NCBI RefSeq assembly: GCF_001484045.1
Contig: NZ_CP013128.1
Coordinates: forward strand, 595,320-647,830
DNA from: Mycoplasma sp. (ex Biomphalaria glabrata)
GTDB taxonomy: Bacteria > Bacillota_I > Bacilli_A > Mycoplasmatales > GCF-1484045
DNA: 52,511 nt
Direction: 5' to 3'
Part shown: positions 16,874-23,091 of the stretch, piece after piece
How the letters are laid out: each line of letters starts with the position of its first letter
Position numbering within the stretch: the stretch's first letter is position 1
The notes under the pieces: model-generated
Seen by the model: the letters and a program-made list of their open reading frames with translations, nothing else
Database searches by the model: none
What the model was told of the DNA's origin: nothing
Program-made: the position numbers and the translations under genes

Positions 16874-16899
16874 AAAACTCACCATAATTGGTGAGTTTT
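16874..16899. terminator. Bidirectional terminator between the membrane protein gene and rpsT
   Basis: AAAACTCACCA (16874-16884), loop TAAT, TGGTGAGTTTT (16889-16899), an 11-bp perfect stem. T-rich tracts follow on both strands, so it can end transcripts of the plus-strand membrane protein gene and of minus-strand rpsT. Confidence 0.92.
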
Positions 16900-16918: not shown

Positions 16919-17182
16919 TTATTGAGAAGATTTAGCTTGGTAAGTCATTATTTGTGATTTTTTACGAGCTGCGTTATTTTGTTTAATTAAACCTTTAGAT
17001 GCACAATTATCAATATATGAAATAACTTCGTTTTTTAATTCAGTAGCATTTGGATTTGCAGTGTCAACAGATGCTTTGTATTTTTTAATTAAAGTACGTA
17101 GTTTTGAAATTTTTTGTCTATTTGCACTATTAGTTGTTTCATTTTGTTTATTTCTTTTTATTTGTGATTTAATGTTTGCCAT
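16919..17182 (-). CDS. rpsT: 30S ribosomal protein S20
   Basis: 87 residues, the usual length. It begins MANIKSQIKRNKQN, the S20 N-terminus, and ends with the NNAARKKS segment typical of the family. It binds 16S rRNA early in 30S assembly. The Shine-Dalgarno AAGGAG lies 6 bases before the ATG on the minus strand, one of the clearest in the window. The gene stands alone and is convergent with the upstream membrane protein gene, sharing its bidirectional terminator. TATTATATT-like sequence upstream on the minus strand (about 17200-17215) could be the promoter. Confidence 0.97.
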   Translation of the reverse strand: MANIKSQIKRNKQNETTNSANRQKISKLRTLIKKYKASVDTANPNATELKNEVISYIDNCASKGLIKQNNAARKKSQIMTYQAKSSQ

Positions 17183-17345: not shown

Positions 17346-17567
17346 ATGGATGCATTCGCATCACTATTGGGAGTAATTCAAACTTTAGCAATTATTTTAA
17401 TAATAGCTTTGGTTATATTAACTTTTTTCCTTCCATTTAAATTTAGAATCTTTGTAATTATTATTTTCGGTATTCTACTACTAGTTCAAGCTCTATTGCC
17501 TATTACAGGTCACTTTAAGGATTCATTTTTATTCTTTATATTACATGGATTGCATATCGTTAGTTAA
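17346..17567 (+). CDS. Small two-helix membrane protein
   Basis: 73 residues with two hydrophobic segments (VIQTLAIILIIALVILTFF and FRIFVIIIFGILLLVQALL) joined by a short basic loop, and a weaker third hydrophobic stretch at the end. GAGAGAAGAGGA provides a good ribosome binding site and a TATAAT lies at 17309-17314. It is the first of four tightly packed ORFs leading to the DUF2779 nuclease, with 1 base separating it from the next. I recognise no family. Its position suggests a membrane partner for the operon, but this is inference. Confidence 0.75.
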   Translation: MDAFASLLGVIQTLAIILIIALVILTFFLPFKFRIFVIIIFGILLLVQALLPITGHFKDSFLFFILHGLHIVS

Positions 17568-17568
17568 A

Positions 17569-17727
17569 ATGAATTTTTTATTTGAAGAAACAAAGAAAAA
17601 CAAAGTAGTAGAACAAGAAACCGTCGTGATCACTATTCCTAGTGGGAAAAAGAAATCATTCTTTTCTCGTTTGATACCGAAATGATTAAGATCTAAAGGG
17701 GGCAAAGATGCTAAAAAACAATACTAA
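17569..17727 (+). CDS. Small basic protein, operon with DUF2779 nuclease
   Basis: 52 residues. The first half is acidic/polar and the second half strongly basic (SGKKKSFFSRLIPKW, then RSKGGKDAKKQY), with one UGA-Trp. There is no Shine-Dalgarno. The ATG comes 1 base after the stop of the upstream membrane protein, so translation is probably coupled. The 3' end overlaps the next ORF by 20 bases. The basic tail would suit nucleic-acid or membrane-surface binding. The function is unknown, and its reality rests on the tight packing and intact frame. Confidence 0.55.
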
Positions 17728-17920
17728 CATTATTATCAAAACAACAAACGCCAATAAACGTTATAAATGTAGTAAAGTAGTCGTTCACGAAAGTAGTTCT
17801 AAGAACGGTAATTACTTATACTCATTTGATATAAAAAGAGTAAGCAAGCGTCCGTTATCAGAAATCGAAAAATTAATTAAATCAGTAGAACGAAGTTTAA
17901 TGAATGAATTCGAAAATTAA
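17708..17920 (+). CDS. Conserved-looking small protein, operon with DUF2779 nuclease
   Basis: 70 residues, soluble, with a probable beta-rich first half (NIIIKTTNANKRYKCSKVVV, YLYSFDIKRV) and a C-terminal amphipathic helix (LSEIEKLIKSVERSLMNEF). A strong AAAGGGGG ribosome binding site lies 5 bases before the ATG. It overlaps the preceding ORF by 20 bases and the nuclease ORF by 17 bases, which implies translational coupling and cotranscription. I recognise no family. Confidence 0.7.
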   Translation: MLKNNTNIIIKTTNANKRYKCSKVVVHESSSKNGNYLYSFDIKRVSKRPLSEIEKLIKSVERSLMNEFEN

Positions 17921-19724
17921 AACTACCATCATTACTAAATCAGATTTTTTAAATTATATAAAGTGCCATCGCAGGTGCTTTTTATTTTTTACAAAGGGTC
18001 AAAAATCTAATTATCAAAATTTACCAAACCAAGACGCAGAATTAATTACGAAATTAATTGACGAACAAAATATTGACGAATTATTTGTGGATGAAAATGA
18101 AAATGAAGGAGTAATGGTTGGGAAGTATGCTCATAATTATTTTCGTGATGTGTATCAAAACACTAAATCCATTAATATAGACGACTATTCTAACGAACTT
18201 AAGGAAAGTAAAACATTAATGGCGATAAATGATCCAGAAATTGGAATAATTTTTGAGGCAACATTTTATTACAATAATGCCATCTGTAAAATTGATGCCT
18301 TGGTTAAGGCTGAAAATGGGCAGTTATTGATTTATGAAGTGAAAGCTTCCTCAAAACCAAAAACTAAATATGCTTATGATGTTTTATACCAAAAAATAAT
18401 ATTACAAAAATTGGGACATCAAATAGCACAATGTTATTTAGTTCATCTAAATAAAAATTATATTCTAAAAGACAAACTTGAATTAAGTGAATTATTTGTG
18501 CCAGCGATAAAATATTATGATAATGAAACTGGAAAAAACGCAGAAGAAATAGCGAACTACGAAGGTCATTTGTTTAATGATTTTGAAGTAATTATTGATG
18601 AAATTATTAAAATTAAAAATCAATGAAATCAAATAGAGAATGTTGATAATTCGAGTGAAATATATAGTGAAAAAAATACAGAACTAAAACAAGGATGTGA
18701 AATATTTTCATATTATAATGGCGGGGTACGAAATGGTTGTTCACTATTTGGTGCAAAATGCGAAGCATTTAATTATTGTTTAAAAAAGTACAACGATGTT
18801 GATTTTCTTAATAGTGTTTTTTCTTTTAATGGCCTAAAGTTTCCAAAAAAAATGTACATGTATAGCACTGGTTATAAATATGTTACTGACTTAAGTGATT
18901 ATAAGTTAATAGAATTCGAATTAAATGATAATGCGAAAAATTATTGAGAAGCATGTCATTCACCAAACGGGATTTTTGTTAAAAAAGAAGAATTAAAACA
19001 TTATTTATCAACAAATTATATTTATCCTATCTATATGTTGGATTTTGAAGGCGTAATGTTTGGAATTCCGATTTTAAAAGGGACATCCTCTTTTAATACA
19101 TTAACATTCCAATATAGTATTCATATAATAATAAAACCAGATAATACATATCAATCTTACGATGAACGCCGCGATAGTGATTTAATACATTGCGAATACA
19201 TTGCGGATTTATCGAAAGAAGATTTTAGAATTGAGCTAATTGATAAATTAATTTTTGATCTAAATAGGGAAGGTCACGGCCCTATTGTAGCTTTTTTCAA
19301 AGCTTATGAAGAAGCAAGGATTAACGATTTAATTAAATATCTAGAACTCGACAAAAATAAAAACAGAGAGCAAATAGATGCACTAAGATCAATAAAATCT
19401 CGCATTATTGATTTACAAGATATTTTTAAGAAAGAAAAATTATTTGATTGCAAATTATTCAATGGGAGCTATAGTATTAAAAAAGTTTTACCAGCTTTAG
19501 ATCCAAAATTTTCATATAAAGGCCTAGAAATACAAAATGGTTTAGCAGCAACAGAAGCATTTAGATATTATTATACTGAAAAGTTTTTTTTGAAAAATCC
19601 TTCTTTTAAAGAAGAGGAGTGGAAAAAAACGCAAAAAAATTTACTAAAATATTGCTATTTAGACACTTTAGCGATGGTTGTTATTTATGAAAAAATGAAA
19701 AAAATAGTAAATTTAAATACCTAA
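17904..19724 (+). CDS. Two-domain nuclease: Cas4-like PD-(D/E)XK plus DUF2779 (DEDD exonuclease-like)
   Basis: 606 residues. The N-terminal half has the RecB/Cas4-type nuclease pattern: KCHRRC (C21, C25), GKYAH (H77), D131 in KIDALVK, E145-V-K147 in IYEVKASS, and Q163. A late cysteine group C279-x6-C286-x5-C292, together with the early cysteines, resembles the 4Fe-4S site of Cas4/AddB nucleases. The C-terminal half is DUF2779: it opens with the D-x-E pair D380-F-E382 (YMLDFEG) and ends with Y583-x3-D587 (YCYLD), the motif III spacing of DEDDy exonucleases. The TM0106-type putative nucleases have a similar RecB-plus-RNase-H-like layout. The likely role is DNA processing (repair, salvage of foreign DNA, or defence). 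The function is not established. It is the last gene of a four-ORF overlapping operon. Confidence 0.85.
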
Positions 19725-19749: not shown

Positions 19750-20577
19750 ATGTTAAGAAAAATTGCCAGTTTATCTGAGTTTCGCGGATGAAATTTTCGC
19801 AAAAAACAAAATTTTCCTCAAACAATTTATACAATAGTAATTATTGTTACTTGCTTAACATCAATTATTGTTACAATAGCGTCCTTTAATAAGGATAGTA
19901 GTCATTCAACAATGTATTTTCAAGACATTGTTTTCTTGGTAATTTTTAGTTTTGACTGAATTGCTAACGCTTTAAAAAATTATTATAAAAATGAAGATAA
20001 AAAAATTCGCTATTTAATATTGTTTTTTCCTAGTTCATTATTTATTTTAGCTTCAATACTGCCATCAATAATCGGTCTACTAATAGCTTTTGATTGTATA
20101 AAACCAACTAGAGGTTTGGATGGCATTTCTTTATTAAGAGTTTTGCGTTTAATTTACATTATGAAATATTTAGAATTAATAGGTTTATTTGTAATGATCT
20201 TTAAAATGAAATTAAAATTATTTCTTGGTTGAGGAGTATTTTTACTAATTATTTTAACTACATTTGCAATTTCTATTTATGTTTCTGAACCGCAATTATC
20301 GTTTTGAAATTCAATGTACTATAGCATTATTGTAATGTCAACAATTGGGCTTGGCGATATAGCTCCAACAAATACAATTAGTCAAGTTTTAACTGCAGCT
20401 TTTGGTTTTGTTGGTGGATTAATGTATACATCATTTGGAGCGTTAATTATTACTAGTATTTTGGAAATCGGGGCAGGTTCGTTTGAGGAGATTAACAAAC
20501 TAACAAAAGGATCTAAAAAATTCGAAGTTGAAGACAGTTCTTGAGAAGAAAAAAAACATGAACAAAAAGATAAATAA
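19750..20577 (+). CDS. Voltage-gated-type potassium channel protein
   Basis: 275 residues, six predicted membrane segments. The pore loop carries the selectivity filter as T198-I-G-L-G-D203, a variant of TVGYGD. An S4-like helix with periodic basic residues (RGLDGISLLRVLRLIYIM) precedes S5. The tail is short and charged, with no RCK/TrkA domain. It probably conducts K+ across the cell membrane. No Shine-Dalgarno is present; a TAAAAT at 19737-19742 leaves 7 bases before the ATG, so the transcript may be leaderless. The final 20 bases overlap the start of the LtrA-like gene, so the two are translationally linked. Confidence 0.9.
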
Positions 20578-22012
20578 ACAAAATATTAATCATGATTCAA
20601 AAAAAGAAAGTTGATATCTATTAGATAGCATAATTAGTTCTTTTTCAAGACCAAAAATTCTTGTCAAAAATTTATTAAAACGCCCTCATATTTCTGTTGT
20701 AGAAATTATTTTTGATGTTTTTATTATTGCCAGTTTTCGACATATTTCAAGTAATTTATCATTTGACTTTTTTACTAATAATATTTATGGGAAAAACAAC
20801 CCACCTATTCCAGAGCAAGTTTATGTAACAATATTTTTTATTATGCAATTTTTATTGTTATGAATAGCATGATTTTTTATGATTTACTTTGTTCAATGAT
20901 TTGAAAATTATGGTATTAAATCAAAAGTTTTGTTCATTATTGTATTTTTAGCAGCATCATTTTTCCTAGCAACACAGTATATGTTTAATTCACATGAAGT
21001 TTTGTTATTTTTCAAGAGTAATTTTTATGATCTTATGATATTAAATTTGTTTGGAATTTTATTTTTATTTATTTCCTTGCTTATCATGTTCATTTCTAGT
21101 TTTCACGAATTAGGTGAACATCAAGAAAATGTTTTAAAGTATTTCTTGAAAATTATTCAGAATGGATTTATTGTAGTTATTTCTTTAGCAGCTATTGGAA
21201 TTATTTTATTATTTACTATTCAAAATATTGTTATGTTGTGAATAACATTATTCATTATTGCCCTAATAATAGGGGTAATGTTTTTTACATTTGAACGTAT
21301 TTTACATTATCAAAAAAGACCTAATATATTAATGTTGCCGTTTAAAACTAATCACCTAATTGAACGTTGTACATTAATGTTTTGTGTTGCGATCGGGGAA
21401 AGTATTATTAACTTTTATGAGGCGGTAGGTCAAAATATTATATCTACTAATATGAACACTGATTACTTCAAGATCATTTTATTAATAGTTGCGACAACAT
21501 TATTGGTTTTGGCATTGTGATGAATATACATTGATCGTGTTTGAACAATTAGATTTCATGAACAAATTATTGATAGTAGAACTTATTTAATTTCAAATTT
21601 ACTAGTTATTACTGGTGTAGTTTTAATGGCTGGAGGATTGGCAAATATAGCAGAAAACTTTTTGGATGATAGTAATATTGGAGATTCATCTATATTTTGT
21701 TTAGGTTTTGCGTTATTTTTTGTTGCCATTTCTTGGGTTTCAGCGACAAAAAATCTTATTCACCAACGCGGAAATGTAATTTTAAAATCATCTTGATCGA
21801 TGTTATTTGCTGTTGACTCAATCGTTATTTCAACATTATCTTTATTAGCAATTAAATTAGATACAACTATTAATAACTCGTTTTTTATTTTGATTATTTT
21901 GACAGGTTTATCATTTATTTCTGTCTTTATTGGAACGTGAGGTTGATACAAATCAACATGAATGCGTGCTCTAAATAAAATTCATTTAAATATAAAACAG
22001 ATTGAAGAATAG
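20558..22012 (+). CDS. LtrA-like (low temperature requirement A) membrane protein
   Basis: 484 residues, about 12 hydrophobic segments. Two family landmarks are visible: RPHISVVEIIFDVFIIAS near the N-terminus, matching the family's HVSWLELFFDLVFV, and HLIERCTLMFCVAIGES, matching HFAERFGLFVIIALGES. LtrA proteins were named from Listeria cold-growth mutants and their biochemical activity is unknown. The ATG lies within the K+ channel gene and no Shine-Dalgarno is obvious, so coupled translation is likely. Many UGA-Trp codons occur. The identification is by motif only and moderately firm. Confidence 0.8.
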
Positions 22013-22061: not shown

Positions 22062-22151
22062 ATGCCACCAATTTGACATTTCATGGCTGTAGCAGCCTTT
22101 ATCGGACCGCTAATATTTGCCATTATTATTTTTTTAGCAGAAAATGAATAA
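22062..22151 (+). CDS. Possible 29-residue membrane peptide upstream of fmt
   Basis: The frame MPPIWHFMAVAAFIGPLIFA continues for nine more residues to TAA. It has one hydrophobic segment and overlaps the fmt ATG by 8 bases. A TATAAT lies at 22042-22047. No good Shine-Dalgarno is seen. The hydrophobic, Trp-containing composition and the stop-start overlap favour a real small gene, but short AT-rich frames can arise by chance. Confidence 0.4.
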
Positions 22152-23091
22152 TATTATGAATATTGCTTTTTTGGGCACCACTTTTTACGCATCAGAAGTT
22201 CTTCAAACAATTTTAAAAAACCCATTAATTAATGTAATCTTAGTTGTTACACCAACTGATAAAAGATGCGATCGAAAAGGACAAGTAATTTTAGGAGAAG
22301 TTGCCATTCTTGCAAAACAAGCTAATATCTCGCTTTTACAAACAGAAAACATTAACGATCATTTAGAATACTTAAAAAGTATGAATATTCAGTATATCCT
22401 AACTTGTGCTTTTGGGCAATTTATTAAGAAACCAATTTTAGATTCATTCACATGTATTAATATTCATCCTTCGTTATTACCAAAATACCGTGGTGGAGCA
22501 CCAATTAATTGAGCATTAATTAATGGAGAAGTAAGAACAGGAGTTTCAATTATTGAAATGACACCAAAAATGGATGCAGGGTTAGTTTTTTTTCAAGAAG
22601 TAATTCCAATTGAATCAACAGACAATTTTTATTCCTTAGAAAAAAAGTTGATTTTTTTAACATGCGTAAAAATTAACAGTTGATTGATCAACATTCATGA
22701 ATTAAATTATCAACCAAAATTGCAAAACGATACCAAAGCAACTTTTGGTTTAAATATTAAAAAAGAAGATTTACAAATTAATTGAAGCAAAACTTCCGAA
22801 GAAATTTATAATCAAATTCGCGGATTAAATAACATAGGAGCATTCACTTACTATTTACGAGATGGGCAAAGATATTTATTGAAAATTTTTACTTCTAAAA
22901 TTTGCGACACAAAGGAAAGTAATGCAAATTATGGTGAAGTATTGCAATTTAGTAATGGAATGTTTATTATAAAAACTGGAGACTCAGCGCTAATGGCGTT
23001 GGAGATTCAAGTCGAAAACAAAACCAAACAAGAAGCAAAAACTTTTTTAAATGGATTTCGTGGTATTAAAGTAGGAGATGTCCTTGTTTAA
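22144..23091 (+). CDS. fmt: Methionyl-tRNA formyltransferase
   Basis: 315 residues, normal length. The formyltransferase core has the signature NIHPSLLPKYRGGAPINWAL, containing the catalytic Asn and His, and MTPKMDAGLVFF, containing the catalytic Asp. The C-terminal OB-like domain follows. It formylates Met-tRNAi for initiation, with formyl-tetrahydrofolate as donor. Two ATGs are possible: 22144 and 22159 (MNIAFLG, matching the family N-terminus better). The first overlaps the end of the small ORF upstream. The 3' end overlaps or abuts the S-component-like gene, so these genes are likely cotranscribed. Confidence 0.95.

Follow-up and report, generated by a model that had tools for sequence, protein, structure and literature searches.

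Introduction

Proteins with the domain DUF2779 were assigned in 2014 to family F.17 of the 3'-5' exonuclease clade within the RNase H-like superfamily, and were described as containing DUF83, which resembles PD-(D/E)XK nucleases (PMC3985635). In a search of the literature on DUF2779 function, the sole functional datum found came from M. bovis, where a transposon mutant of its DUF2779 gene (Mbov_0804) shows normal axenic growth but stays below the wild-type titre with host cells (PMC7373297). The two halves of such proteins can be compared with Cas4/AddB-type PD-(D/E)XK Fe-S nucleases, including the Argonaute-associated ACE1, and with DEDD 3'-5' exonucleases of the RNase T/TREX1 type.

Here, we analyze a DUF2779 gene of Mycoplasma sp. 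(ex Biomphalaria glabrata), located in a stretch of 52,511 nucleotides (the window; contig NZ_CP013128.1). A reading made from the sequence alone had proposed that three small ORFs and the nuclease gene form an operon, the products of which assemble into a complex. Based on the results below, we consider it likely that the locus is a chromosomally fixed, stand-alone DUF2779 nuclease preceded by lineage-specific small ORFs, and that the latter are not conserved subunits.

Gene Layout of the Locus

ORFs in the window were called with genetic code 4 (TGA = Trp). Under this code, the four ORFs were confirmed in position and packing (Table 1): a single base separates A from B (stop at 17567, ATG at 17569), B and C overlap by 20 bases, and C overlaps the nuclease gene by 17 bases. 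An end of the operon at the nuclease, as assumed in the sequence-only reading, was not confirmed. Its boundaries are arbitrary, as genes for a K+-channel-like protein, LtrA and fmt come directly after on the same strand, the first of them beginning 25 bases past the nuclease stop (19724).

Table 1. Features of the DUF2779 locus (window coordinates).
Feature	Position	Strand	Description
rpsT (ribosomal protein S20)	16922-17182	-	Pfam Ribosomal_S20p, 75.9 bits; divergent flank, synteny anchor
Small ORF A	17346-17567	+	73 aa; two predicted transmembrane (hydrophobic) helices
Small ORF B	17569-17727	+	52 aa, basic; 60 aa if the start is at 17545
Small ORF C	17708-17920	+	70 aa; Shine-Dalgarno AAAGGGGG
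DUF2779 nuclease	17904-19724	+	606 aa; N-terminal PD-(D/E)XK domain (Cas4/AddB-like), C-terminal 3'-5' exonuclease domain (predicted DEDDy)
Terminator-like hairpin and T-rich tail	17960-17992	+	stem 17960-17981; within the first 30 codons of the nuclease
K+-channel-like gene	19750-20577	+	Pfam Ion_trans; TIGLGD filter
LtrA gene	about 20561-22012	+	Pfam LtrA
fmt (methionyl-tRNA formyltransferase)	22144-23091	+	named from recognisable sequence; tblastn synteny

Domains and Active Sites of the Nuclease

The full Pfam profile of DUF2779 (PF11074) matches residues 377-524 of the nuclease with 84.9 bits, passing the gathering cutoff of 23.3. In an alignment of 40 homologues spanning Spiroplasma, Mesoplasma, Hepatoplasma, Endomicrobium, Nitrospirae, Bacteroidota and proteobacteria, D131, E145 and K147 of the PD-(D/E)XK domain are invariant, as are D380, E382, D503, D587 and Y583 of the DEDD domain. 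The nuclease claim of the sequence-only reading, which named D131/E145/K147 and D380/E382/D587, therefore stands, although D503 and Y583 had been overlooked. An AlphaFold model of the protein reached a pTM of 0.86. Using Foldseek, one half of it resembles ACE1/Cas4/AdnA and the other half RNase T/TREX1, with weak E-values of about 0.02-0.16; no solved structure was matched by sequence. Thus, the proposed fusion of a Cas4/AddB-like PD-(D/E)XK domain to a DEDD domain (DUF2779) is borne out by Pfam, by the conserved residues and by the predicted fold. It is not a new one, since it was already described in 2014 (PMC3985635).

Like the Cas4/AddB-type enzymes, the protein has the catalytic D/E/K residues and a matching cysteine pattern, but it is additionally fused to a DEDD exonuclease. 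Cas4 models of PADLOC match it with an E-value of 1.7e-6, the Pfam model Cas4 (PF01930) remains at 11.6 bits below its gathering cutoff of 22.7, and no cas gene was noticed among the neighbouring ORFs examined. With RNase T/TREX1-type exonucleases, it shares D380, E382, D503, D587 and the overall fold at an identity of about 7-12%. In contrast to DEDDh enzymes, however, it has a YxxxD motif, and because of the spacing Y583-x3-D587 its exonuclease domain is predicted to be of the DEDDy subtype. Compared to family F.17, the exonuclease domain is the same and we see no essential difference. The closest mollicute homologues are approximately 30% identical. The UU173 family (NCBIfam NF045869) is matched over the full length (residues 44-603 to model positions 60-649 of 650), but since the score is 99 bits against a curated cutoff of 225, the nuclease is a divergent relative of UU173 and not a member by the cutoff rule. 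Judged by its sequence, the large ORF is a real PD-(D/E)XK and DEDD nuclease, and an ordinary, divergent member of the DUF2779 family.

One upstream cysteine (C21) and three downstream ones (C279, C286, C292) form the sequence pattern of the Cas4/AddB [4Fe-4S] cluster. This fits the likely Fe-S site proposed earlier, and a cluster at this place probably braces the PD-(D/E)XK domain. C21 is kept in at least 90% of the aligned homologues; all of those outside Mollicutes have at least three downstream cysteines, and most of those in Spiroplasma and Mesoplasma have two. In four Hepatoplasma-type homologues (L135, L139, L141, L144), every catalytic residue is retained, but none of the four putative Fe-S cysteines is left.

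Synteny of the Nuclease Gene

Of 59 genomes from the same taxonomic order, 40 encode a homologue of the nuclease, and the gene arrangement rpsT(-)/DUF2779(+)/fmt(+) is conserved over several families. rpsT is the adjacent, divergent upstream gene in this genome, in the Spiroplasma ixodetis-type and Hepatoplasma-type groups, in Mycoplasma sp. SG1 and in others, and fmt follows the nuclease in 20 of the 22 named mollicute loci (tblastn). The window keeps this frame with two insertions: ORFs A-C lie between rpsT and the nuclease, and the genes for the K+ channel and LtrA between the nuclease and fmt. For the latter two, no counterpart at this place was detected in the compared relatives.

The order of the four genes was checked in other Mollicutes and is not conserved, as the small ORFs are not found beside the nuclease in the relatives searched, save for a look-alike of ORF A in Mycoplasma sp. 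SG1 (see below). In the Hepatoplasma-type loci L139, L141 and L144, rpsT and the nuclease gene are 55-470 bp apart, with no ORF of at least 50 aa between them. Other families have unrelated small genes at the position of ORFs A-C, belonging to a 93-aa family and a 202-aa transmembrane family. The former gives only a weak match elsewhere in this genome. The latter is a conserved family of 200-202 aa, Lys-rich and with a single transmembrane helix, encoded directly 5' of the nuclease in Spiroplasma and Mesoplasma (L069 9197-9805, L102 8778-9395, and similar). Judged by gene order, MMSYN1_0388 of the minimal cell may belong to this family; in the literature on minimal-cell genes, no paper was found that assigns a DUF2779 gene to this cell. 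A descent of ORFs A-C from the 202-aa family by decay was considered and rejected, as the profile of this family finds nothing in this genome.

Outside Mollicutes, the neighbours of DUF2779 genes vary and include WYL regulators, PHP proteins and AAA ATPases (Arcobacter and Helicobacter plasmids). No constant small partner occurs there, and ORFs A-C were not seen in the neighbourhoods examined.

Some further observations were made in these comparisons. At four non-mollicute loci, two of them on Aliarcobacter plasmids (L163, L165; also L083, L086), DUF2779 is found beside AAA ATPases, another nuclease of the PD-(D/E)XK type or WYL-type regulators (annotated in L165 and named by look in L083 and L086), a setting which resembles a defence island. 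In another family, the nuclease is directly 3' of a folD-like gene, also named by look (L155 3200-5809 in genome G014; L154 2830-5440 in genome G007), and in G014 both form a single open frame of 869 aa. Finally, a frame for a microprotein of 27-29 aa with a single transmembrane helix is present just 5' of fmt in the window (22062-22151; MPPIWHFMAVAAFIGPLIFAIIIFLAENE), and a similar-looking frame in Mycoplasma sp. SG1 (L147 11867-11950; MHILFVHLGAVISVVVFVIIVYLAEDE), though the two genomes are of different families.

The Small ORFs

ORFs B and C might be spurious, as chance frames of AT-rich intergenic DNA. Codon usage does not help here, because the small ORFs score 0.05-0.12 bits/codon, a range shared by real and spurious ORFs. 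In agreement with spurious frames, no homologue of B was found in 58 other genomes of the same order, and none of C in 319. However, a chain of three ATG-initiated ORFs with such spacing and at least 45 aa each occurred in only 1 of 2000 random 600-bp Markov sequences. Plausible ribosome binding sites precede ORFs A and C, the Shine-Dalgarno sequence of C being strong, and a single-sequence AlphaFold prediction of C yielded a coherent beta-beta-beta-alpha fold, albeit of low confidence (pLDDT 69). We therefore regard spurious frames as unlikely; since the chain is rare by chance, all three small ORFs are probably real genes and translated.

The sequence-only reading had called the three small proteins unfamiliar, and our searches likewise placed them in no family and gave no convincing homologue (320 genomes for A and C, 59 for B). 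ORF A has no match above cutoff in Pfam or NCBIfam. For ORF C, phage records contained no match, viral contigs no confirmed relative, and a structure comparison gave no useful hit. Sub-threshold matches of the small ORFs to SpoIIP (E 0.009), TrbC (E 0.5) and phrog_30307 (E 0.0095) in searches of Pfam, NCBIfam, PHROGs and PADLOC were taken as chance.

One candidate relative was detected for ORF A. Mycoplasma sp. SG1 has an ORF with two transmembrane helices at the same place (L147 9542-9838), which aligns to ORF A with an E-value of 0.005 for this single comparison; 27 of 2000 segment-preserving shuffles equalled the alignment. Taken together, alignment, shuffle test and shared position suggest that both ORFs are homologous. 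When the 320 genomes were searched with ORF A, with ORF C and with a profile of A combined with the SG1 sequence, no further match survived correction for genome number. In SG1, the two-transmembrane ORF is followed by merely 138 bp, which contain no ORF matching B or C and offer no room for them, and an intrinsic terminator with a perfect 9-bp stem is found between this ORF and the nuclease. Since the terminator separates them, the two genes do not form one operon in SG1. The DUF2779 gene of SG1 is itself split over two frames of 466 aa and 134 aa (L147 11350-11380), by a frameshift, a sequencing error or decay.

These data bear on the proposed complex, in which stoichiometric membrane and small partners would accompany the nuclease, perhaps to process incoming or damaged DNA. 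Spelled out, ORF A would be the membrane anchor and B and C accessory or regulatory proteins, so that the nuclease would act on this DNA at the membrane. The tight overlapping packing, which is improbable by chance, the plausible ribosome sites 5' of A and C and the SG1 look-alike of A agree with this idea. On the other hand, B and C have no homologues in the other Mollicutes searched, a terminator stands between the SG1 look-alike and the nuclease and no matching ORFs follow the look-alike, other families have different small genes 5' of the nuclease, and a terminator-like hairpin is present at the 5' end of the nuclease gene in the window itself. The sequence-only reading had named the absence of the small ORFs from relatives that keep the nuclease as grounds for dropping the complex, and precisely this was found. 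The comparative evidence thus does not support the complex, and we consider it very unlikely.

Instead, ORFs A-C were probably inserted in this lineage between the nuclease gene and the divergent rpsT, judged by a comparison which covers genomes of the same order, with this genome the sole member of its own family among them.

A Hairpin in the 5' End of the Nuclease Gene

A stem at 17960-17981, 56 bases inside the nuclease ORF and coinciding with rare codons, is followed by TTATTTTTTA. ORFs A-C could thus be an independent transcription unit, for example of a membrane protein with small partners, which ends at a terminator within the 5' end of the nuclease gene. The nuclease would then depend mainly on a promoter of its own or on read-through, with the hairpin as an attenuator. 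In support of this, just 72 of 20000 synonymous versions fold as stably as the hairpin, which exceeds 99.6% of them in stability, and SG1 has its perfect terminator between the two-transmembrane ORF and the nuclease. However, the stem contains two G-U pairs and reaches only about -9 kcal/mol, compared to -15 for a terminator at 16874-16899, and its z-scores (-3.0 against shuffles; -3.9 at most) are not decisive, as about 150 windows were scanned. Owing to the number of windows and the G-U pairs, it is suggestive only that the hairpin ends the transcript of ORFs A-C and attenuates the nuclease, and we regard the independent transcription unit as rather unlikely.

For a stand-alone nuclease preceded by lineage-specific ORFs, the following picture would emerge. 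After their insertion between rpsT and the nuclease, ORFs A-C are probably translated, and their transcription may read through into the nuclease gene at a level reduced by the hairpin. Since the small ORFs run up to and into the nuclease gene, they may be translationally coupled to it in this one lineage. A further step, in which the small ORFs constitute a newly evolved regulatory module of a membrane anchor and small proteins, translationally coupled to the nuclease, with an attenuator in the first codons setting the nuclease level, has in our opinion a slim probability.

Implications

Judging from the folds, the PD-(D/E)XK and DEDDy domains would most likely act in DNA end trimming or DNA degradation, like Cas4/AddB and the RNase T/TREX exonucleases; DNA as the substrate, the polarity, the Fe-S cluster and the cellular role are all putative in this respect. 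The M. bovis mutant suggests that the DUF2779 gene has a role in growth with host cells. With the present results, the proposed membrane-nuclease complex drops off the list of new systems, and the DUF2779 nuclease gains a place beside rpsT and fmt that is conserved in many Mollicutes.
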